Assembly (NCBI RefSeq): GCF_029633965.1
Contig: NZ_CP091277.1
Coordinates: 2,291,940 to 2,355,939 of the forward strand
DNA length: 64,000 bases
Source of the DNA: Methanogenium sp. S4BF
GTDB lineage: Archaea > Halobacteriota > Methanomicrobia > Methanomicrobiales > Methanomicrobiaceae
Direction of reading: 5' to 3'
Positions within the stretch are counted from its first letter, which is position 1; each line of letters opens with the position of its first letter. Below the pieces are notes generated by a model. The model saw only the letters and a list, made by a program, of their open reading frames with translations. It had not been told where the DNA came from and ran no database searches. The position numbers were made by a program, and so were the translations under genes. Of this stretch, positions 40,360 to 57,959 are shown one piece after another.

Positions 40360-42426
40360 CTACACCCGAAATACCAGCAGGTTCCAGTAATTCACCCACC
40401 ACATCATCAGGAAGAGCCCGATGACAACGAGGGTATAATGCAGCCGGTGCCGGAGCGTCCACCATGACCGCCTCCAGACCGGCAGAAGGAATATGGTGCT
40501 TGCCACCGACAGCAGGGCTGCGATGACCGGGACTGAAAGGGCCATCGCAAGGGCAGGAGGTGTAGTCCGGTCGAACATGTACGACTGGATCAACGCTGCA
40601 TCTGCCGTGACCGCCGGAAGAAGAATGAGGACGAAGAGGAGAACGAGAAGGGCTGCTGTCCCCGTAACCATCCGTGCACAGAACGGCAGCTGCGAAGATG
40701 GTGCTGTTCTTTTGTCCGTTTTCGTTGGTTCATCCGCGTTCATCTCTCCATTATCCGGACTGTAAGCCCGTCGGCAAATCGCCATCAGGGGCCAGAGGAG
40801 GGCCGTCAGCAGAATGATGGTGGCCGCATTCTTCACCGCATCCACGAATCCATCCGTCCCATACCATGGCACCCGTTCGAAGGCCATGATCGGGACGTTT
40901 TCGAGGCAAAGGAGCGTCACATCGCCGTCTGCATTCTCCCGAAAGACCACATCCCCCGCATAGGTATTCGCCCCGTTTGTCTGAGCAAAGACACCCGGTT
41001 CGATCTCGGTATAGGGGGTGGGTGTTTTCCCGCTTCGCATAAGGAGAATCGTCCCCCCCTCGCCTGCCGCGGCCTGTATCTGCTGGGGCGGCGAGAGATA
41101 ATACTCGAACGTCCGGTAGTTGTGGCGTGTCGACTGGTAGGTGCCTGCAAACGCTTGAACGGATGGTGCAGGAGCCGTTCCGTCATAGGCTTCCTCCAGT
41201 CCGGCCGGTTCACCCCCGGTCGCTGTCTCGTCATCGTCCGGGAAGAAATGGTCGACGAACGCCATCAGGAGATCATTTCTCGCTGAGTTCCCCCCGGGGC
41301 TGTTGTAGGAGACGAAATATCCTGTCTTTCTCTCCGGGATAATGACCAGCAGGGAATGGAAGGTGTCGGTATCGCCTCCGTGGGTTATGATCCGCTCGCC
41401 CTCAATGTGGTTTTCATAAAACCCGAGGCACATGCTGCTGACACGTGGGTCGTTTGCGAATGCCGGGGCGTGCATAAGGGAGGCGGTATCTGAAGAGAGA
41501 ATCTCCACACCGTTCCATGTGCCGTTTTCCATGTGAACCGCGGCGAATTTCGCCATGTCGGCCGCCGTGGAGCTGATCGTCCCCGCCGGACCGATGACAA
41601 AGACGGTGTCCGGAACGGCCACATTCGCCTCTCCGGTATAGTGATACCCTGAGGCAGTTGCCGCGTCAGCCTCTGGTGTGAGTGGATAGGAGACAATGGT
41701 GTCCGTCATACCAAGCGGGGTGAGGATGTTCTCCTGTACATACTGCCCATAGGGGATCCCGGTGATATCCTCAATAATGACTGCAGCAAGTGTTGTGCCA
41801 TAATTCGAGTAGGCGGTGACTGTCCCCGGCGGATAGACGATGGCGGGGATGTTATCCCTGCAGTAGATCCTGAATGAGTAGAGATCCGCTGCATCGGCCA
41901 CAGCGAAATGCACCTCCTGCTCCTCGAATCCTGCCGAATGGGTCATCAGGTGCCGCATGGTCACCGGCTGTCCGGGGTAGGTGTCCGGGAGAGAGAAACC
42001 GGTCAGATACGTATTGACATCCGTATCGAGATCAATTCTTCCTTCCTCCACCAGCTGCATAACACAGGTCCAAGTGAAGAGCTTGGTTATTGATCCGATA
42101 TGAAAGTGTGTCGCTTCCGGGTCGACTGTATTTTTACTATCAATGTCAGAATACCCGTATCCTTTTGCAAAGATCAGCTCTCCGTCCTGCACGACAGAGA
42201 CCACGGCACCTGGTATGTTGTACTCCGCCAGTCCTGCAGGAACCGCTGTGTTAAAAAATGCTTCAACATCAGAGGGATTTATGAGCTCTTGATCGGTAGA
42301 TGGCCCGGTGCCATCTGCATGTACCGGTGGACATGCAAGAAGGAATAACGCCATAAGAACGATAATGCTCATACGAATCATCCCGGAAATCCCGGTTTTC
42401 TGAGGATTACAGCATGCAGAATTCAT
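40360..42426 (-). CDS. serine hydrolase of the beta-lactamase/penicillin-binding fold with C-terminal membrane helices
   Basis: The exported protein of about 688 residues has a signal sequence (MSIIVLMALFLLACPP), then a class C beta-lactamase-like domain with SITK (Ser nucleophile and Lys), YSNYG (the Tyr-x-Asn motif) and HGGDT in place of the KTG motif. A beta-rich linker domain and four C-terminal helices follow. Such proteins are peptidases or esterases; methanogens lack murein, so a classical penicillin target is unlikely. The start is uncertain: ATG 42474, 42453, 42426 and 42381 are all in frame. 42426 has a weak GAGG upstream; 42381 gives the most compact signal peptide. Confidence 0.8.
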   Translation of the reverse strand: MNSACCNPQKTGISGMIRMSIIVLMALFLLACPPVHADGTGPSTDQELINPSDVEAFFNTAVPAGLAEYNIPGAVVSVVQDGELIFAKGYGYSDIDSKNTVDPEATHFHIGSITKLFTWTCVMQLVEEGRIDLDTDVNTYLTGFSLPDTYPGQPVTMRHLMTHSAGFEEQEVHFAVADAADLYSFRIYCRDNIPAIVYPPGTVTAYSNYGTTLAAVIIEDITGIPYGQYVQENILTPLGMTDTIVSYPLTPEADAATASGYHYTGEANVAVPDTVFVIGPAGTISSTAADMAKFAAVHMENGTWNGVEILSSDTASLMHAPAFANDPRVSSMCLGFYENHIEGERIITHGGDTDTFHSLLVIIPERKTGYFVSYNSPGGNSARNDLLMAFVDHFFPDDDETATGGEPAGLEEAYDGTAPAPSVQAFAGTYQSTRHNYRTFEYYLSPPQQIQAAAGEGGTILLMRSGKTPTPYTEIEPGVFAQTNGANTYAGDVVFRENADGDVTLLCLENVPIMAFERVPWYGTDGFVDAVKNAATIILLTALLWPLMAICRRAYSPDNGEMNADEPTKTDKRTAPSSQLPFCARMVTGTAALLVLLFVLILLPAVTADAALIQSYMFDRTTPPALAMALSVPVIAALLSVASTIFLLPVWRRSWWTLRHRLHYTLVVIGLFLMMWWVNYWNLLVFRV

Positions 42427-42573
42427 CTGTAATTGAATCCTCGTTCTATTCATTATTAAAATGAATTGGGGCATTTGAAATCAGAATTAATGTCCTTTGC
42501 CTATTCTGCCCGGATGCGTGCCGATCACATCACCATTATAATGTAATATCCCTTTATCCGGGTCTGATCAGGG

Positions 42574-46860: not shown

Positions 46861-49800
46861 ATGATATATATGGGTATAGTTGACTTGGTTAACAAAAGGG
46901 GTCTGCCCCTCTTTTTTGCTATCCTTCTGATGTTAGTTGTATGTGCTGTCCCGGTATGTGCTGCTTCCTCAACCGAAGTGACAGTACAAAAGATTGCGGC
47001 AGACGGCACGACAGTCCTCAATGAGGTGACAGTCAGTGCTGCATGGATGGAAGTAAATCTTCCCGTGATGGGAGACGGAACAACGCACTACTATGCACAG
47101 GGTCCATCCTTCAATGAATCAAATCTCTGGGATCCATCGGAGACGATAAACTGGGAAGAGAAGGACATGGGTGCAGTCAGAGGTACTGACATTAAAGACC
47201 TCTGTAATCAGGTGGGCGGTGCGGAAAGCGGAGATCTGATTGTCCTCCGTGCTGCAGACGGATATTACAAGACATTCCCATATGAAAATGTCTATACTCC
47301 CGCGTCCCGGCAGGGTCAGATTGTGCTTGCCTGGGAGAAAAACGGCAAATCTGTGAGTGACGGTTCCTACGCAGATGGTATGCGCAATGTCTTCTTTGCA
47401 GATAACTCCACGAATCCGGAAGGAGCCCATGTCTATGGCAACTGGGATATGCATGAGACGATGCCGCAGATATACTGGCATTATTTCTCTGGAATCTATC
47501 CTGCAACAACAGGTCTGTCGGTGCAGACAATCAGCCAGATTAAGATTCTCACAGATGAACCGGCACCCGCGGCACCGGTGACCATTTTTGACGGTCCGGT
47601 GAATCTTGCTGACAGCACGTTCTCGTGGACCGATTCGAATGGTGCCTCCTATGACATCCGCTGGCAGACCCCGCACGGTGCGCTTCAGGCCGCTGCCTCA
47701 GATGGCGGTTTTACCTATGTGGGCGCCTGGAAAGACAGCAAAAACACGGCTCTTCTGAATGATATCTTCGCAGTTGATAGCTGGTACAACTACAGCAAGG
47801 ATGACGGCCTTGGCTGGAACTACCAGGTGAACGGTGCCTATGTCAACTATTACTCTGATGTGACCGGGATCTCGAATTATGCCGATCTCGCAGACGGCGA
47901 TGTGATCACCTACTACTATGGTCCGAAGGATGACATCACGACCGACAACGCAACTGCTCTCATCACGATTGATGTGAACTTTGGCGGTGCCGGCCCAACA
48001 GAGATCTACGATGGTACAGTGAATCTTGCTGACGAGACCTTCTCATGGACTGATTCGAATGGTGCCTCCTATGACATCCGCTGGCAGACCCCGCACGGTG
48101 CGCTTCAGGCCGCTGCCTCAGATGGCGGTTTTACCTATGTGGGCGCCTGGAAAGACAGCAAAAACACGGCTCTTCTGAATGATATCTTCGCAGTTGATAG
48201 CTGGTACAACTACAGCAAGGATGACGGCCTTGGCTGGAACTACCAGGTGAACGGTGCCTATGTCAACTATTACTCTGATGTGACCGGGATCTCGAATTAT
48301 GCCGATCTCGCAGACGGCGATGTGATCACCTACTACTATGGTCCGAAGGATGACATCACGATCGACAATGCAACTGCTCTCATCACGATTGATGTGAACT
48401 TTGGCGGTGCCGGCCCAACAGAGATCTACGATGGCACAGTGAATCTTGCTGACAGCACGTTCTCGTGGACCGATTCGAATGGTGCCTCCTATGACATCCG
48501 CTGGCAGACCCCGCACGGTGCGCTTCAGGCCGCTTCAGCAGATGGCGGTTTTACCTATGTGGGCGCCTGGAAAGACAGCAAAAACACGGCTCTTCTGAAT
48601 GATATCTTCGCAGTTGATAGCTGGTACAACTACAGCAAGGATGACGGCCTTGGCTGGAACTACCAGGTGAACGGTGCCTATGTCAACTATTACTCTGATG
48701 TGACCGGCATCTCGAATTATGCCGATCTCGCAGACGGCGATGTGATCACCTACTACTATGGTCCGAAGGATGACATCACGACCGACAATGCAACTGCTCT
48801 CATCACGATTGATGTGAACTTTGGCGGTGCCGGCCCAACAGAGATCTACGATGGTACAGTGAATCTTGCTGACGAGACCTTCTCATGGACTGATTCGAAT
48901 GGTGCCTCCTATGACATCCGCTGGCAGACCCCGCACGGTGCGCTTCAGGCCGCTTCAGCAGATGGCGGTTTTACCTATGTGGGCGCCTGGAAAGACAGCA
49001 AAAACACGGCTCTTCTGAATGATATCTTCGCAGTTGATAGCTGGTACAACTACAGCAAGGATGACGGCCTTGGCTGGAACTACCAGGTGAACGGTGCCTA
49101 TGTCAACTATTACTCTGATGTGACCGGCATCTCGAATTATGCCGATCTCGCAGACGGCGATGTGATCACCTACTACTATGGTCCGAAGGATGACATCACG
49201 ACCGACAACGCAACTGCTCTCATCACGATTGATGTGAACTTTGGCAGCGGCCCGACACCTGGTGAGGACTGGAGCATTGTGGTAAAGAACGGTGCCCGTG
49301 AATTTACCGTCGACAAGGCATACTTTGAAGCAGGCGTTGGCTGTGGTCATGCAGCATCCTATACTGATGTGGACGGCACATGGGCCGGCATGCCGCTCTA
49401 CTTCCTTGCAGGGCTTGTCGATGACGACAATTCACATGGTGCTGATGCCTTCAACCGTGACCTTGCAGCGCAGGGATACTCCGTTGAAGTAACCTCCGGA
49501 GACGGCTATTCAATCAACTTCGAATCCGCAGATATCGCAGATAATGCAAATATCTTTGCGGCAAATACCCTCAACGGCGCTGAACTCCCGGCAGTCATTG
49601 GCGATAAGGATAAGCCCTGCTGGCCACTCCGGATGTCCGGGTCAGAGGTCTCTGCCGGGAAACTTGTTGGCAATATTGTCACCATCGAACTCATTGGTGT
49701 CCCCGAACCGTCCGAAGGATGGGAACTGGCGGTAAACGGTCTCATCTCTGATGTGGTAACCGAAGCTGAATTCAATGATTTCTGCATGCACGCCGCCACC

Positions 49801-52800
49801 TGGACCGACGGCAACGGCGATGTCTGGGAAGGCGTCCCGCTCTGGGTTATTGCGGCTGTCTCTGACAACTATGAATCAACCACCCACTGGACCTTTGATG
49901 ATACCACAGCAGCCAATGGATACACCGTCCGCATCACCGCAGGCGACGGATTCTCCCGTGACTTTGCCAGTGCGGATATGGCACGCTCGGATGACTACAT
50001 CCTTGCAGGCATCTGCAACGGTGAACCGCTTTCAGATGAAGGCGATCCGGCAATGTACCCCCTGCGGCTTGTGGGACCGGCGGTCTGGAATGAGGCTGAA
50101 GGGAAATTCACCGGCTCAGCAATTTCAAACATCACCACCATTGATCTGGTAGAACTGATTCCGCCTGAACCTGCAGAAGGGTCATACAACCTTCTGACGA
50201 AGGGAATCATCACCAGTGTTATCACTGAGCAATTCTTTGAACAGGCGCTTGTCTGCCATCACACACAGACCTGGGTCAACGAAGCAACCGGTGAACAGTG
50301 GAGTGGTATTCCGCTCTGGATCCTTGCAGGATGGGTGGACGACCGCACACCACACGGCTCTGACGGCTTCAACGATGCTGTCGCCCTTGCCGGCTATACG
50401 GTGATTGTGACCGCAGACGATGGATATTCCAAGAGCCTTTCGAGTGCTCTTGTTGCCCGCAACAATGGCCTCATTGTCGCAAACACCCTGAATGGTTCAC
50501 CCCTTGAGGACAGTTTCCCCCTGCGTCTGGTCGGCCCTGCCCTGCCGGAAGCAAGCTATGGCGTCGGCAACCTCGCAAAGATTGAGCTGACTGACTTCTG
50601 TGAACCGGAAGGCTCCCTCCCGCTGACCATCGTGAAGTATGCCGATGATGGTGTCACCGAGCTTTCCAATGTAACGGTTAGCTGGGAATGGATGGCAGAC
50701 AACCTGCCGGTCTATGGTGACGGTGTCACGGAATACCAGTTTGAAGGCCTCTGCTGGCCGCCGAACGATCCGTGGGATATGGCAGAAACCTATCCGGGCG
50801 GCTTCAAGGTCTCAGAACAGATGAAGGGCACGTCCATCCGCGAGCTCTGTGACCTCGCAGGCGGTATGGATCCCGGCACTGAGATTAAGTTCGTTGCAAC
50901 AGACGGATGGACAAGCAAACTCTCGTATAATGTCATCTACGAACCGGCAGACTGTGTCGGAGAACCCGTCCTGGCGTGGTACAGCGCAGACTGGGGCGGC
51001 CCGATGCCGGATTACGAAGATGGTTTCCGCTTATTCTTTGCAACCGATGACCACATCTTCGGTCAGAAGGATATGTATGAAGGCATTCCGTTCGAATACT
51101 GGCACTATAACTCAGGTCTCCCGTCCTGTGCAGGCCTTTCTGCAAGGATGGTTACCCGGATTGAACTAACCACCTACGCAGATCCGACATGGACGCTGAC
51201 CGCACTCGGTGCCATTCCCTCTGAACTCACGAAAGGATTCTTCGAGGGTGCGATGGGATGTACCATGTCCGGCAATCACAAGGCAGTCTATGCAGATGGT
51301 TCCGGCAATACCTGGGAAGGTATGCCGCTCTGGCTGATCTGCGGATATGTCGACGATGCAAATTCACACGTTGGCAAATCGTACAATAAGACGCTTGCTG
51401 AAATCGGCTATGACATTCATATTATCGCTGAAGATGGCTATGAGACCGTCATTGACAGCCGTGACACTATTGAAAACAACAACTATGTCATTGCAAACAC
51501 CCTCAACGGTCAGCTGATGCGGCCGGATGACGGAAACGGCTGGCCTCTGCGCCTTGTCGGTCCGAATGTCACCGCTCGTTATGATGGCGTAAAGAGTGTG
51601 AAGAACATCGTGAAGATCATCCTTGACCTCCCGTATGCACCGGATGAGTACTCCGGCATAGTTGCGGCTGAGTGGGGAGACATCCCTGCAGGCGCTCCCA
51701 TACAGGCTTTTGTCGGCAGCATAGCTGCAGGAGAGGGTCTGATGGCTGATACCAATGTGTATGCCACTGCCGATGCACGCTTTGCGGTCACTGGCACCCA
51801 GTATATCATTGGCGAACCAATCACCTTCATCGTGGACGGGGTTGAGGCACTTGAGCACCCCGTATTCATGGGTGCACAGACTGTCGTGCTTAACCTGACC
51901 TTCCCCATCGGCAGCCTGCCGGTTGGTGTTGAGGACTGTGACGGTGTTCCGCCCGGTGTTGTGGCCGCCGGTGGAAATGTCACCGTTGACCTGACCGGTG
52001 GCAATGTAGATGTGGACGGCTCCAATATCACCATCTTCCCGGCCGGCAATGGCTGGGAGAGCATGCTCATCAAGACGGCTGGTTTAGCAGAGAATGCGAC
52101 CGCTGCAACCGGCAGCGTTACCGGTGTCCTTGCAACAGGTATTCCTGTATCTGGCACGGTGCCCGCAGTCGGAAATGTCACTGCAGGATTTATGGTGAAT
52201 CTGACCGGCATGCCGGGAAATAATGCAGGCATTAAATCGATGATTGCAAAGGAACCGTCCTCTGAGATGCTTTCCTACTTCCAGCTTGCTGCGGCAGCAG
52301 AAGGCGTCGGCATTCAGGATGTGGCATACACCCTTAATATCCAGAAATCCGGCATCGCCAACGGTGATGACATCAGCAGTGCTGTCATCAGAATGGCAGT
52401 CGCGCCTGAGTGGGTTACCGCTCATGGCGGTGTCGGTGCAATTCAGATCATCCGCCATGGCGAGGAAGGAATCACCGAAGTCCTTGAAACTGCCTTTGCC
52501 GGCTATGATGCAGCGGGTCTGATGATCTTTGAGGCAGAATCACCAAACGGACTCTCTCTGTTTGGCATGGCAGCCGTGTCAACACCATACTATGGTGACA
52601 GTGACGACTCCGGATGGACACCGGCACCTACTCCGACACCCGTTATTTCCACACCTGAGGCTGGTGCTGAGTATGCCATTATTTCCTCAGCAGTGACCTT
52701 CAGCACAGCTGATGACACAAAATCAGTCTCTATTGACCGTCGTGTTGCAGAGGCAAATGATGCTGCAGTCGTCGTAACCGGCACTGAGGTGCAGGTCCGT

Positions 52801-53469
52801 ATGGCTGGTGGAACGCTTTATGTGGAGATGACTGGTGTCAATGAGGATGGAAATGTGATCTCTGGTGACGTCACCCACGTCTTCTACAAGGCAGCACCGG
52901 TGACGGCTGCACTTGGCGGCATCGGTAATGTCGCGGGCAGCATCACGATTGACTTCCTGGCAGTGCCCGCTTCAGACGCTGCGTTTGCTGTTTTCCTTAC
53001 AGGAAAAGTGCCTGCACAGATCGAAAACGGGTTGAAACAGGCCGCACTCTCTGCCGGAAAGACCTCTGGCGATGTGGCCTTTATCATGCCGCTCTCCGCT
53101 TCCGGATTCTCCGTCGGCAGCACAACTGTGGCCCTTACTGCACCTGCACTCTGGATAGAGAGCAGCGGTGGTGCCGGCAATGTCGCGATTGTCGGGTATG
53201 GGTCTGACGGCAGGGCCGCCCTGCTGCCGACTACCCTGACTGATGACGGTGCATTCACCGCAGAATCCCCTGTTCTCTATGATGGCTATGCTCTCGTTGC
53301 TCTCAGCGCAGCAGAGGCCGGTGCAGAAATGACACCTGCACCCACAGCCACCCCGGGAGGCAGTGCACCTGCAGAAGAGACTCCCGCATCAGGCAGTATC
53401 TTCACCACCCTTGCACTCATTTGTGTAGTCTTCGGTGTTGCCGGATATGCGGCAATGAAAAAGAGATAA
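46861..53469 (+). CDS. giant multidomain surface protein with DUF4430 repeats and sulfite-oxidase-like domains
   Basis: This 2202-residue exported protein has a signal peptide (FFAILLMLVVCAVPVCAA). Domains, by my reading, are: a molybdopterin-binding-like domain (about 40-235); four near-identical 140-residue DUF4430/transcobalamin-C-like repeats (241-797; GLGWNYQVNG is the core motif); three sulfite-oxidase-like domains (about 802-950, 953-1100, 1107-1245); a further domain like the N-terminal one (1252-1437); and a fourth sulfite-oxidase-like domain (1441-1590). Beta domains, Pro/Thr linkers (PAPTPTPV, TPAPTATP) and a C-terminal helix anchor ending AAMKKR complete it. Each sulfite-oxidase-like domain keeps a Cys followed by W.G.PL. 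Ligands are unknown. Confidence 0.85.
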   Translation: MIYMGIVDLVNKRGLPLFFAILLMLVVCAVPVCAASSTEVTVQKIAADGTTVLNEVTVSAAWMEVNLPVMGDGTTHYYAQGPSFNESNLWDPSETINWEEKDMGAVRGTDIKDLCNQVGGAESGDLIVLRAADGYYKTFPYENVYTPASRQGQIVLAWEKNGKSVSDGSYADGMRNVFFADNSTNPEGAHVYGNWDMHETMPQIYWHYFSGIYPATTGLSVQTISQIKILTDEPAPAAPVTIFDGPVNLADSTFSWTDSNGASYDIRWQTPHGALQAAASDGGFTYVGAWKDSKNTALLNDIFAVDSWYNYSKDDGLGWNYQVNGAYVNYYSDVTGISNYADLADGDVITYYYGPKDDITTDNATALITIDVNFGGAGPTEIYDGTVNLADETFSWTDSNGASYDIRWQTPHGALQAAASDGGFTYVGAWKDSKNTALLNDIFAVDSWYNYSKDDGLGWNYQVNGAYVNYYSDVTGISNYADLADGDVITYYYGPKDDITIDNATALITIDVNFGGAGPTEIYDGTVNLADSTFSWTDSNGASYDIRWQTPHGALQAASADGGFTYVGAWKDSKNTALLNDIFAVDSWYNYSKDDGLGWNYQVNGAYVNYYSDVTGISNYADLADGDVITYYYGPKDDITTDNATALITIDVNFGGAGPTEIYDGTVNLADETFSWTDSNGASYDIRWQTPHGALQAASADGGFTYVGAWKDSKNTALLNDIFAVDSWYNYSKDDGLGWNYQVNGAYVNYYSDVTGISNYADLADGDVITYYYGPKDDITTDNATALITIDVNFGSGPTPGEDWSIVVKNGAREFTVDKAYFEAGVGCGHAASYTDVDGTWAGMPLYFLAGLVDDDNSHGADAFNRDLAAQGYSVEVTSGDGYSINFESADIADNANIFAANTLNGAELPAVIGDKDKPCWPLRMSGSEVSAGKLVGNIVTIELIGVPEPSEGWELAVNGLISDVVTEAEFNDFCMHAATWTDGNGDVWEGVPLWVIAAVSDNYESTTHWTFDDTTAANGYTVRITAGDGFSRDFASADMARSDDYILAGICNGEPLSDEGDPAMYPLRLVGPAVWNEAEGKFTGSAISNITTIDLVELIPPEPAEGSYNLLTKGIITSVITEQFFEQALVCHHTQTWVNEATGEQWSGIPLWILAGWVDDRTPHGSDGFNDAVALAGYTVIVTADDGYSKSLSSALVARNNGLIVANTLNGSPLEDSFPLRLVGPALPEASYGVGNLAKIELTDFCEPEGSLPLTIVKYADDGVTELSNVTVSWEWMADNLPVYGDGVTEYQFEGLCWPPNDPWDMAETYPGGFKVSEQMKGTSIRELCDLAGGMDPGTEIKFVATDGWTSKLSYNVIYEPADCVGEPVLAWYSADWGGPMPDYEDGFRLFFATDDHIFGQKDMYEGIPFEYWHYNSGLPSCAGLSARMVTRIELTTYADPTWTLTALGAIPSELTKGFFEGAMGCTMSGNHKAVYADGSGNTWEGMPLWLICGYVDDANSHVGKSYNKTLAEIGYDIHIIAEDGYETVIDSRDTIENNNYVIANTLNGQLMRPDDGNGWPLRLVGPNVTARYDGVKSVKNIVKIILDLPYAPDEYSGIVAAEWGDIPAGAPIQAFVGSIAAGEGLMADTNVYATADARFAVTGTQYIIGEPITFIVDGVEALEHPVFMGAQTVVLNLTFPIGSLPVGVEDCDGVPPGVVAAGGNVTVDLTGGNVDVDGSNITIFPAGNGWESMLIKTAGLAENATAATGSVTGVLATGIPVSGTVPAVGNVTAGFMVNLTGMPGNNAGIKSMIAKEPSSEMLSYFQLAAAAEGVGIQDVAYTLNIQKSGIANGDDISSAVIRMAVAPEWVTAHGGVGAIQIIRHGEEGITEVLETAFAGYDAAGLMIFEAESPNGLSLFGMAAVSTPYYGDSDDSGWTPAPTPTPVISTPEAGAEYAIISSAVTFSTADDTKSVSIDRRVAEANDAAVVVTGTEVQVRMAGGTLYVEMTGVNEDGNVISGDVTHVFYKAAPVTAALGGIGNVAGSITIDFLAVPASDAAFAVFLTGKVPAQIENGLKQAALSAGKTSGDVAFIMPLSASGFSVGSTTVALTAPALWIESSGGAGNVAIVGYGSDGRAALLPTTLTDDGAFTAESPVLYDGYALVALSAAEAGAEMTPAPTATPGGSAPAEETPASGSIFTTLALICVVFGVAGYAAMKKR
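47581..49245 (+). repeat. four tandem 420-bp repeats (DUF4430 units)
   Basis: Units start at about 47581, 48001, 48421 and 48841, exactly 420 nt apart, in frame. They differ at only a handful of bases. Units 1 and 3 share GACAGCACGTTCTCG, units 2 and 4 share GACGAGACCTTCTCA. Units 1 and 2 share GCTGCCTCA and GGGATC; units 3 and 4 share GCTTCAGCA and GGCATC. Such near-identity at silent sites shows recent duplication or ongoing conversion. Confidence 0.95.
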
Positions 53470-53490
53470 TCCCATTTTTTATTTTTCTAA
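53470..53490 (+). terminator. T-rich terminator after the giant gene
   Basis: The stop codon is followed by TCCCATTTTTTATTTTTC, two T runs with no marked hairpin, the usual form of an archaeal transcription stop. Confidence 0.5.
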
Positions 53491-53715
53491 AATCCGGATG
53501 TGGAAATAATCTCCTGAAAGATTACTTTCGTCCTTCTTTTTCCGGAGTGCAGCGGGCTGACGTCTGAGCTGTTCGTTCATTGTCTGAATGGGTCCCGGTC
53601 AGCAATGACTTATGATTCCATTGCAGTGTTTTAGGCCAAAAATACGGGGAGATGTCCTGTCCGTATCCTCTGCATCCAGCACTCGTGGTGCCAGGCATGA
53701 CATCATGGGATCTGC

Positions 53716-53973
53716 CTATTTCCCCGGTCCCTCTGGTTTGGTTCCGGCACCAGTCTTCGGGCCGGATGTAAGATAGAGATGGACCAATACCGCGACCGCA
53801 AAAGGACCCCACAAAACGGTATGAAGTCTGAATGACAGGGATTTACCGAGTACCCCAAGAGTGAACGGTTCAACGATTCCCGGATAGGTAATCCCAAATC
53901 CGGTAACCAGAATACAAATGGTAAGCAGCAGCAAAATCCTGTTTGTCCATGTACGATATACTCTCATTTTCAT
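53716..53973 (-). CDS. two-helix membrane protein with His-X13-His (DUF4405-like)
   Basis: The 85-residue protein starts at ATG 53973 (CCCGGAGAG 7-8 nt upstream). It has two transmembrane helices: RILLLLTICILVTGFGI and, after a short loop, a second holding RLHTVLWGPFAVAVLVHLYL. The two histidines in helix 2 are 14 positions apart, the spacing that binds two b hemes in cytochrome b helices, and the layout fits DUF4405-type cytochrome b561-like proteins. It begins 23 nt after a sulfite-oxidase-like gene, an order like MsrP-MsrQ, so it may pass electrons across the membrane. Heme binding is inference. Confidence 0.65.
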   Translation of the reverse strand: MKMRVYRTWTNRILLLLTICILVTGFGITYPGIVEPFTLGVLGKSLSFRLHTVLWGPFAVAVLVHLYLTSGPKTGAGTKPEGPGK

Positions 53974-53996
53974 CCGTATCTCTCCGGGAATATCTG

Positions 53997-54683
53997 TCAG
54001 CCAAAGAAACTCCTGTCCAGATCACCTATGTTGGAATACCCTCTCCTCTCCCAGTATCCCCGGTAGGTTTCATCGTCTGAAAGCTCAATTGTAGTAATCC
54101 ATTTGATCCACTTGTATCCCCACTTGTCCTCCGCAACAAGCATGAAGGGAAAGCCCCTTTCTGCGGGAAGGGTTACGTTGTTCATGGAATGAGCCATGAT
54201 GATGTTGTTGTCAATGATATAGGTGAGAGGAAATGATGTGGAATATCCGTCATATGCAGTGAATATTACCGTATTTGCGGAAGGCAGAATACCGGATTGG
54301 TCTGTTATATCATTTACCCGTACTCCCTCCCAGAGAATGGTAACGTCCCACCCTTCGACACAGTTGAGGGTTACAACCTTTTTGTAGTTCTTAAATTCCG
54401 ACAGAATCTCATCGTATGAATAGGTTTTTTCATTGGTTACCAGCCCGGAGACGGTAAGCCGGTAATCCTCCTCTGAGATACGCTGTGGACCTTTTATCGA
54501 GTTTTCCCGGAATGCTGATATTTTGGAGAGGTCTTCCCCATCGTAATTCCTGATTTCAACTCCTTCGAAATCCCCTGACTGCGCAAAATCCTGGTTGATT
54601 ACGCCTGAGAGATCAAATAGATAGAGGATAATTACCGCGGCTATTGCGCAGAGTATAATTATCCGCAGGAAGTTTATCTGAAT
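53997..54683 (-). CDS. membrane-anchored sulfite-oxidase-like (molybdopterin) protein with no canonical start
   Basis: The continuous frame has no ATG, GTG or TTG before 54197, yet the coding sequence clearly reaches back to about 54683. It encodes an N-terminal anchor helix (INFLRIIILCAIAAVIILYL), LTVSGLVTNEKTYSYDEI, the Mo-ligand type segment VTLNCVEGWDVTILWEGV, FTAYDGYSTSFPL, ERGFPFMLV and GYKWIKWITTIEL. These are sulfite-oxidase/YedY-family motifs. GGGAGG lies 7 nt before an ATT at 54683, so either ATT is the start or a frameshift separates the ATG at 54690 from the frame. It pairs with the two-helix protein downstream. Confidence 0.7.
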   Translation of the reverse strand: MQINFLRIIILCAIAAVIILYLFDLSGVINQDFAQSGDFEGVEIRNYDGEDLSKISAFRENSIKGPQRISEEDYRLTVSGLVTNEKTYSYDEILSEFKNYKKVVTLNCVEGWDVTILWEGVRVNDITDQSGILPSANTVIFTAYDGYSTSFPLTYIIDNNIIMAHSMNNVTLPAERGFPFMLVAEDKWGYKWIKWITTIELSDDETYRGYWERRGYSNIGDLDRSFFG

Positions 54684-56131: not shown

Positions 56132-57244
56132 ATGGAAGGAATTGCCATTGCACTTGCAGCATGCGTAGGAGTGGCACTCATCTGCCGGCGGTATGCTATT
56201 CCCCCCATTCCGTTCTATATCATCACCGGCCTTGCATTAGGGACTGCGGGCTTTGGTATTGTACAGACGTCTGAGGTTTCAGAATGGATTGCTCATATGG
56301 GGCTTTTGTTTCTCCTCTTTACGATGGGTCTCCATCTCCATCCGGGTGAAGTCGCAAAGCGGCGCGGCTCATTTCTCATTGCCGGAATGATTGATCTCTG
56401 TGTCAACTTCGCTGCCGGGTTAGCGGTGGCGTTCCTTATTGGTCTGCCGCTCTTTGATGCATTGGTGCTCGCCGGAGCATTTTATATTTCAAGTTCAGCT
56501 ATTGCGCTTTCATCACTGATTGACAACCGAAAACTTGGGTTTCGGGAATCTGATACCGTGATCTGGCTGATGGTCTTTGAGGACATTATGCTTGTAGCAC
56601 TGCTGATCCTGTTTACGGCACAGGATGTTTCCCCGCTCCGCACGATAGGTATCATCGTTTGCGTTGCGGCCGCCGCCTTTGTCTGTGTGGGGAAGTTCCG
56701 GGCACCTCTCCGGGAGTTCTTTGCACGGGAGGACGAACTTCCGATACTTGCGGTATTTCTGGCAGTGGTGCTGGCAGTTGCGGTATCAGACGTAACCGGT
56801 GTCCCTGACAGTCTGTTTGTCATCATTCTTGGTTCGGCCATCTCCCTTGCAGCAGCTGACCGTGCCGAAGTAGTTGCCCGTCCGTTCAGGGAGGTATTCC
56901 TTGTCGTATTCTTCGTATTTTTTGGGATATCAGTCAGCTTTACCGGCATGCCCCCTCTCGTCATCCTGGCGTCTGTGATAGTCCTCGCACTTATCACCAA
57001 ACTCATCTCCGGGCTTATGATTGGGAAGGCCATTCATGGAAGGGTTCTCTCCGGAATTGACATATGGGCAGATACCACGTCACGGGGGGAATTCTCGATC
57101 CTTCTGGCACTGTTATACGGATCTTCCGCTGTAGTCCCTGTTGTTGCTGCAATGGTGGTTATAACGTCATGCATTGGCTCATTTACCGGTAAATACAGCG
57201 TTCGTATGCGGCGGTGGTGTGGGTGCATCACTACAGGGAAATAA
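56132..57244 (+). CDS. khtU: KhtU-like cation:proton antiporter (CPA2)
   Basis: The 370-residue membrane protein has about 12 helices, starts ALAACVGVALICRRYAIPPI and contains YIITGLALG, LFTMGLHLHPGE, SSAIALSSLID and DTTSRGEFSILLAL. These are motifs of the CPA2/KefB-type antiporters. With KhtT it forms a K+/H+ exchanger that removes K+ at high pH or osmotic change. Its end is close to the recombinase-like gene, with a gap of 76 nt. Confidence 0.9.
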   Translation: MEGIAIALAACVGVALICRRYAIPPIPFYIITGLALGTAGFGIVQTSEVSEWIAHMGLLFLLFTMGLHLHPGEVAKRRGSFLIAGMIDLCVNFAAGLAVAFLIGLPLFDALVLAGAFYISSSAIALSSLIDNRKLGFRESDTVIWLMVFEDIMLVALLILFTAQDVSPLRTIGIIVCVAAAAFVCVGKFRAPLREFFAREDELPILAVFLAVVLAVAVSDVTGVPDSLFVIILGSAISLAAADRAEVVARPFREVFLVVFFVFFGISVSFTGMPPLVILASVIVLALITKLISGLMIGKAIHGRVLSGIDIWADTTSRGEFSILLALLYGSSAVVPVVAAMVVITSCIGSFTGKYSVRMRRWCGCITTGK

Positions 57245-57320
57245 TGTCAATTTAATCCAACCAAATTTATTTATATGGTTATCGAAGAATATATCGTATC
57301 CAGCCCTTGAATGTGATGCT

Positions 57321-57959
57321 ATGAAACAACAGTCAGTGGTATATCTTAACAGCCGCAAATCCGCTGATTTTGAGAAACAAAAGATAGATATTGAAAATTT
57401 CTGTAAATATCGGTTTGATATAGACCGTGTTTTTCATGATAATCAGTCTCCTGCTGTTCCCGCCTCGAATCGTCCGGAATTCATCGAAATGCTGAACTAT
57501 TGTGAAAAAAATGGCATTTCCAATATTATTTTCCATGATCTGGATGTCACACTGAAAAATTCAGATGTGTTTACGAGCGATCTCTCTCTGGTCCTGAAAA
57601 GCGGGTCTATCCCTTACTGGGCTCAGGGGGATTTCATCTCCGGGGGGTATGATTCTGAGGAACGAAGGGAGGCTGTCAGTGCCTTTTCCCGCTATCTGGA
57701 CCAGTTTTCATCCCAGCGGTTACGGGGAAAACGGGGGAGAAAAACCGCCGCTGCTCCCAGCCGCCGTCCGGGCCGCCCTCAGGCTCTGGATGAGAAGGGG
57801 ATGTCCGATCTCCTTGCGGCACGGCGTTCTGGAAAGACAATTGGTGAGGTGTGCCGTATCTTCAATGTTTCACGAAGCACGGTAAGTAAGATTCTTCGTG
57901 ATTATCCTGAGTTGAAAGGTGAATGGAAGGGGCCCGTTTTACCGAAAAAACGAACATGA
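57321..57959 (+). CDS. serine-recombinase-like protein with degenerate active site and HTH
   Basis: The 212-residue protein (ATG 57321) keeps the resolvase layout: N-terminal VVYLNSRKSADFEKQK, the RPEFIEMLNYCEKNG helix, IIFHDLDVTLKN, and a C-terminal Hin-like helix-turn-helix (KTIGEVCRIFNVSRSTVSKIL, about 171-191). But the catalytic set is lost: the YxRxS motif reads YLNSR, and the DRxxR motif reads DVTLK. It should not cut DNA. A DNA-binding regulator derived from a resolvase is the likeliest role. The earlier frame start at 57174 overlaps khtU and is rejected. Confidence 0.75.
   Translation: MKQQSVVYLNSRKSADFEKQKIDIENFCKYRFDIDRVFHDNQSPAVPASNRPEFIEMLNYCEKNGISNIIFHDLDVTLKNSDVFTSDLSLVLKSGSIPYWAQGDFISGGYDSEERREAVSAFSRYLDQFSSQRLRGKRGRKTAAAPSRRPGRPQALDEKGMSDLLAARRSGKTIGEVCRIFNVSRSTVSKILRDYPELKGEWKGPVLPKKRT

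Follow-up and report, generated by a model that had tools for sequence, protein, structure and literature searches.

We analyzed a window of 64,000 nucleotides (nt) of the complete, 2.51-Mb genome of Methanogenium sp. S4BF (contig NZ_CP091277.1, positions 2,291,940 to 2,355,939), a Methanogenium species whose closest relative in our comparison set is M. marinum; coordinates below count from the first nucleotide of this window. Two small genes of the minus strand (54683..53997 and 53973..53716), separated by 23 nt, both converge on a giant open reading frame (ORF) of the plus strand (46861..53469), which encodes an uninterrupted surface protein of 2202 aa. The first small gene encodes a 228-aa protein of the sulfite oxidase (SUOX) fold (Oxidored_molyb) with an N-terminal membrane anchor and a domain predicted to lie outside the cell. 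The second encodes an 85-aa membrane protein resembling DUF4405 and half of cytochrome b561, with two hydrophobic helices and the pair H51-x13-H65 (hereafter, the two-helix protein). This anatomy had been described in an earlier note, and it was borne out by the ORF coordinates and by domain searches. As detailed below, we regard the giant protein as a convergent neighbor that stands outside the redox pair.

We observed that the two small genes travel together. Across this genome and 60 related genomes, the SUOX gene is present in 18 and an intact two-helix gene in 12, and the latter adjoins the SUOX gene in all 12 carriers, the present genome included (p = 1e-8); in a sample of 197 genomes of the phylum, 37 possess the SUOX gene and seven the two-helix gene, with adjacency in 7/7 cases (p = 5e-6), both p-values treating related genomes as independent and being inflated by kinship. 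We further compiled 80 named SUOX loci (archaea, Chloroflexota, Aerophobetes and others): the same two-helix gene lies directly downstream in 30, a second DUF4405 two-helix gene is found nearby in 11 further loci (mostly convergent) and other membrane proteins with an HX13H motif in three. The adjacency was also detected in metagenome-assembled genomes of Dehalococcoidia, Aerophobetes, Thermoplasmata, Woesearchaeota and Micrarchaeota, some of these bins being perhaps misassigned. One large family of the phylum (f8) carries the SUOX gene without an HX13H-type neighbor. In a single related genome (G007), the SUOX gene is gone and the two-helix ORF appears as a decayed remnant without helix 1 (L158:2217-2399), which looks like a sign of joint loss. 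These results support the view that the minus-strand pair is a conserved operon that would combine an exported SUOX-fold protein with a membrane protein bearing a heme-ligand signature. The earlier note had treated the membrane-anchored SUOX-like gene and the two-helix His-X13-His gene as a unit, and the 12/12 and 7/7 adjacencies uphold this part of it.

The small SUOX protein matches PF00174 with an E-value of 4.6e-32, and its relatives of known structure by sequence are SorA, SoxC, sulfite oxidase and YedY. In a profile alignment, its Cys108 (54360..54362, minus strand; motif C-V-E-G-W) falls on SorA position 104, the molybdenum ligand of that enzyme. Cys108, the predicted ligand here, is kept in 80/80 relatives, whose loci come from many phyla, and the V-E-G-W that follows it and one Lys are essentially invariant across the same loci. 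The domain is predicted to lie outside because an N-terminal hydrophobic helix is found in 79/80 relatives, with an average net charge that is positive before the helix and negative after it, and because 24/80 present a lipobox. A MoaA gene is present in the genome. The SUOX gene has no suitable in-frame ATG, GTG or TTG start; an ATT at position 54683, behind GGGAGG (54696-54691), fits as a start, and M. marinum and genome G023 share it. The gene apparently starts with this ATT, a rare choice for archaea outside ATG, GTG and TTG. A promoter and terminator scan of the locus with a bacterial promoter model, applied here to an archaeal host, gave nothing informative.

Six positions of the two-helix protein (G25, G27, I28, G40, H51 and H65) are kept without exception in 42/42 archaeal and bacterial sequences. 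Based on the positive-inside rule, both termini would lie inside the cell, with the predicted heme ligands H51 (53821..53823, minus strand) near the outer face and H65 (53779..53781, minus strand) near the inner face. A His-x13-His pair across the membrane is the classic spacing for two hemes. The protein scores below the Pfam cut-offs of PF14358 (12.7 bits; cut-off 26.7) and PF01292 (16.9 bits; cut-off 30.1), and a PDB sequence search returned chance-like matches only. The matches are nevertheless consistent among members (PF01292 in 12/12; PF14358 in 11/12), and the match to PF01292 lies in the final two helices of cytochrome b561. DUF4405/arCOG04002 has been described (Makarova and colleagues, PMC5898192) as corresponding to one half of cytochrome b561 and as having two heme His, and the two-helix protein presents the corresponding features, with two membrane helices and a pair of conserved His at the spacing of heme ligands. 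A 2024 study (PMC11334425) demonstrated binding of heme b by purified DUF4405 and FezC, the latter being modeled as a homodimer that completes its sites. The two-helix protein may likewise bind heme b. A second two-helix DUF4405 family, also with a His-x13-His pair, adjoins SUOX genes in mostly convergent orientation (L120, at 8 nt; L081, L083, L077, L088, L093, L144 and others), and this type passes the PF14358 cut-off (39.9 bits, 6e-10 in L151).

We then considered the genes surrounding SUOX in other genomes, leaving out antisense ORFs that clustered with SUOX since these mirror the coding strand. Genes for MsrA and MsrB, whose identities were confirmed with Pfam on representatives, were found in the orders MsrB-MsrA-SUOX (L107), SUOX-MsrB-MsrA (L112) and, together with superoxide dismutase (SOD), SOD-SUOX-two-helix-MsrB-MsrA (L153). 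Other loci present SUOX-MsrB (L126), a convergent MsrB (L118), an upstream MsrB (L175) or MsrA/MsrB at about 2 kb from SUOX (L140). Because gene order varies between these loci, we view the association of Msr genes with SUOX as a repeated one. Genes for SOD, peroxiredoxin and rubredoxin also recur near SUOX, and this neighborhood as a whole indicates oxidative repair. The peroxiredoxin and double-rubredoxin neighbors come repeatedly from Methanoregula-type genomes, whose loci are related to each other. In seven of them (L106, L108, L117, L132, L133, L139 and L152), a divergent double-rubredoxin gene adjoins SUOX, an MtrH-like gene lies about 2-3 kb upstream and, in 6/7, a phenylacetate-CoA-ligase-like gene lies downstream. 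This double-rubredoxin neighborhood is possibly a hint at the electron donor, or merely conserved synteny.

The sequences present a SUOX-fold gene with an invariant molybdenum-ligand Cys directly upstream of a two-helix gene with an invariant His-x13-His. Our preferred reading is that the two products form a minimal trans-membrane electron-delivery pair, feeding an outside SUOX domain whose reaction is the reduction of methionine sulfoxide or of a related oxide; we hold this to be quite possible, if somewhat short of probable. Two copies of the two-helix protein would form a four-helix bundle, by analogy with the model of FezC, a DUF4405-like homodimer, and this bundle would hold two hemes of the b type, each close to one of the two membrane faces. 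A cytoplasmic donor, for which rubredoxin and ferredoxin are guesses, would give electrons to the homodimer, and these electrons would pass from the hemes to the molybdenum cofactor (Moco) of the outside SUOX domain. The latter would then reduce methionine sulfoxide, or a related S- or N-oxide, on surface proteins, and the pair may work like MsrPQ in strict anaerobes without MsrQ. We favor this direction and this type of substrate because the neighboring genes point to oxidative repair.

Alternatively, the same membrane pair could run in reverse: the SUOX protein would be an outside dehydrogenase of sulfite or of another sulfur compound, and electrons would move inward through the two-helix cytochrome. 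SorA, SoxC and sulfite oxidases are the closest solved relatives by sequence, and this reading stays alive because positions of the sulfite active site are widely kept, with an Arg at the SorA R55 position in 70/80 relatives and a Tyr at the SorA Y236 position in 71/80. However, neither position is strict (H in 7 relatives for the former; F or W in 9 for the latter), the protein presents no dimerization domain and no cytochrome c subunit, and its scores fall far under the cut-offs of the SorA and SoxC equivalogs (respectively, 55.9 and 51.8 bits; cut-offs 600 and 420). Moreover, the neighbors of SUOX are genes of oxidative-damage repair rather than of sulfur oxidation, and the hosts are mostly strict anaerobes. 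We consider a sulfur dehydrogenase unlikely.

Several observations weigh against the electron-delivery reading. The kinship of the genomes inflates the adjacency statistics, and about half of the SUOX genes have no HX13H neighbor. MsrA/MsrB genes are found near SUOX at 7 loci in all and at none in this window, and the present genome already has two MsrA genes. A motif of the RR type, as expected for a twin-arginine translocation (Tat) signal, was found in just 1/80 SUOX relatives, and exported Moco enzymes of the SUOX fold normally receive their cofactor in the cytoplasm, before Tat sends them out. In searches run family by family, orthologues of AhbC and AhbD were not found in the present genome, which returned partial matches to generic radical S-adenosylmethionine (SAM) proteins (best 3e-22 and 2e-27), and neither was a ferrochelatase orthologue. 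Likewise, a survey reported AhbABCD in 0/32 Methanomicrobiales (PMC8351635).

We regard the missing Tat signal as a puzzle for the loading of Moco, not as proof against molybdenum. It leaves no obvious route for a loaded cofactor, which fits a reading of the SUOX protein as a PruR-like pterin sensor that works without molybdenum and signals through the small membrane protein. Pterin sensors of the SUOX fold do exist, but PruR, a SUOX-fold pterin binder, has lost the molybdenum Cys (PMC13259868) that is invariant here. The pair also has neither a cyclic di-GMP nor a kinase partner, and no signaling domain is present in the two-helix protein; a sensor of this kind appears very unlikely.

Because AhbC, AhbD and ferrochelatase were not found in the present genome, heme in Methanogenium would need to be imported, or the site would hold something else. 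The latter case defines a further reading, raised by the absence of heme synthesis in the hosts: the pair would be functional, with a His-x13-His that binds a metal ion or another tetrapyrrole, or that is a structural anchor. Many bearers of the gene (DPANN, Dehalococcoidia) belong to lineages expected to be without heme synthesis. AhbD matches occurred in all 60 relatives, most of them to radical SAM proteins of a generic kind; strong matches alone were counted, which gave 23/61 genomes and only 3/12 of those with the two-helix gene. Against this reading stand the two-heme spacing of the His pair, the binding of heme b by the related DUF4405 and FezC (PMC11334425), and the heme auxotrophs with heme proteins that have been reported among methanogens (PMC8351635). 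We judge a non-heme site improbable. The heme-synthesis trait is mixed among operon carriers: three operon-bearing relatives (G016, G028 and G036) encode an AhbC/D-like pair with strong matches, which in G036 adjoins a protein that scores 163.8 bits for AhbB (cut-off 125). This locus (L205; G036:C1:1995500-2001000), from a genome of the same order, thus presents AhbB and a pair of radical SAM genes resembling AhbC/AhbD (NirJ1/NirJ2), as compared with the 0/32 of the survey.

Methanomicrobiales are usually described as cytochrome-free. An extension of the electron-delivery reading, which we find rather doubtful, is that the operon represents a widespread surface repair system specific to anaerobes, made of a Sec-exported (non-Tat) molybdenum SUOX enzyme and a homodimeric, two-heme half-cytochrome b whose heme would be scavenged by methanogens classed as cytochrome-free. 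If true, the pair would allow strict anaerobes to deliver electrons through the membrane to their surface proteins, and the half-cytochrome b would be a natural counterpart of the designed His-x13-His four-helix maquettes. The archaeal methionine-sulfoxide reductases described so far are mostly cytosolic (PMC6211008), and no paper mentioning both sulfite oxidase and DUF4405 was found in the literature searched. The pair raises two testable questions: where the heme comes from, and how Moco enters a protein exported without Tat.

We further analyzed the giant protein. Its N-terminal part is a remote SUOX-fold relative (domain N; 46966..47580, residues ~36-240), with copies 41-56% identical across Methanomicrobiales. 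It is followed by four near-identical repeats of about 140 aa that are weakly DUF4430-like (47599..49245; 420-bp units, 3.9 copies, 97% match). Three SUOX-like domains come next: S1 (49270..49710, residues ~804-950), which has a C-x-H motif and no molybdenum Cys, S2 (49720..50172, residues 954-1104) and S3 (50182..50598, residues 1108-1246). These precede N2, a copy of N (50611..51180, residues 1251-1440), and S4, which presents a PruR/YedY-like fold without the molybdenum Cys (51181..51645, residues 1441-1595); a C-terminal membrane anchor (53392..53460) follows a T/P/A-rich linker. The number of repeats ranges from 1 to 5 among orthologues, which suggests a recent change in copy number.

The SUOX-like domains of the giant match PF00174 (60.4 bits; cut-off 24), and the N2 family is a remote relative of the fold (profile probability of 92% to the small SUOX protein). 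PDB sequence searches with profiles of the giant's domains gave chance-like matches only. AlphaFold models of the fourth repeat with S1 (pLDDT 88) and of N2 with S4 (pLDDT 84) matched YedY, sulfite oxidase and PruR in fold searches, PruR being the best match for N2-S4. These models indicate that the S domains adopt the SUOX fold (Foldseek probability 1.00; TM(target) ~0.6). The earlier note's description of four repeats and at least four Cys-containing SUOX-like domains was also accurate, although the Cys is not a molybdenum ligand: in S1-S4 it is conserved together with a His in 47/49 sequences and sits just after the first helix, and the alignment position of the molybdenum ligand is not a Cys. 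A reading of the giant as a Moco enzyme with molybdopterin-type catalysis was rejected on this ground; the S domains resemble PruR, which binds pterin without molybdenum. PruR is, however, a single small periplasmic protein, whereas the giant carries tandem domains at the cell surface, for which pterin binding, at a site comparable to Tyr104/Trp160 of PruR, is putative.

The repeats share with DUF4430 (PF14478, "transcobalamin-C-like") their length and a TPxGAL and WxxxVNG/DGD pattern. They nonetheless fall below its cut-off of 23.8 bits, both in the present genome (E-value 0.24, 12.3 bits) and in an orthologous giant (E-value 0.016, 16.0 bits), and a DUF4430 search of the genome does not return them. 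The fold search of the model with a repeat and S1 was dominated by the SUOX domain. The corrinoid or transcobalamin reading of the repeats was rejected given these scores, and nothing else indicates corrinoid. We view the giant as a surface protein in its own right, in which tandem SUOX-fold domains that are PruR-like and molybdenum-free alternate with DUF4430-like units acting as spacers; that it binds a ligand, possibly a pterin, is speculation.

The earlier note had also proposed a joint role of the three genes in the extracellular binding of corrinoid or another cofactor. The giant and the operon do adjoin convergently in the present genome and in M. marinum, and in these two only. In addition, a protein of 546 aa that combines S and N2-S4 domain types of the giant is encoded about 2.4 kb from the operon in genome G009. 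However, the giant and the SUOX gene co-occur at chance level (7 observed and 7.4 expected of 61 genomes; p = 1; Fisher test), and orthologues of the giant are found in many Methanomicrobiales irrespective of the operon, and four congeneric genomes have the giant but not the operon. Convergent genes do not form one transcript, and the DUF4430 match lies below its cut-off. A three-gene module was rejected on its lack of co-occurrence and appears extremely improbable; an absence of co-occurrence was what the earlier note had named as refuting it, and this outcome applies to all three genes together, whereas the two small ones do co-occur. The G009 protein (L156:10167-11807) is membrane-anchored, is built of S, N2 and S4 types and has no DUF4430-like repeats. 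Elsewhere in the window, we identified a membrane-anchored serine beta-lactamase-like protein with C-terminal helices (40360-42474, minus strand; PF00144, 1.6e-63) and a small protein resembling resolvases (57174-57959, plus strand), which has an HTH_7 domain and a divergent N-terminal domain that falls below the PF00239 cut-off.

The two small proteins can be compared with several known systems. Like SorA, SoxC and sulfite oxidase, the small SUOX protein possesses the SUOX domain, the Cys and most active-site positions, but it is membrane-anchored and has neither a C-terminal dimer domain nor a heme c or b5 partner. The two-helix protein shares with the arCOG04002/DUF4405 half-cytochromes b561 and with FezC two helices, two conserved His and, putatively, a homodimer that completes the heme sites. 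In contrast, its own sequence falls below the DUF4405 cut-off, and those families are known from flavinylation (ApbE), ferrosome and AOR clusters, whereas SUOX is the constant neighbor here. Finally, the operon recalls MsrP-MsrQ (YedY-YedZ), the bacterial repair system for oxidized extracytoplasmic proteins, by encoding an exported SUOX-fold protein with a molybdenum-ligand Cys together with a membrane protein of b-heme type, and by its repair-gene context in some lineages. The label "mini MsrPQ-like" given to it earlier gains from the Msr and SOD neighbors in distant lineages and fails as a statement of membership: the partner is a two-helix DUF4405-like protein and not the six-helix, ferric-reductase-like MsrQ, the Tat signal is absent, and the score against the MsrP equivalog NF003767 is 60.2 bits for a cut-off of 207. 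The operon would follow the logic of MsrPQ with a cytochrome-type partner that is smaller and of another kind, and in this sense it resembles, but is not, MsrPQ.

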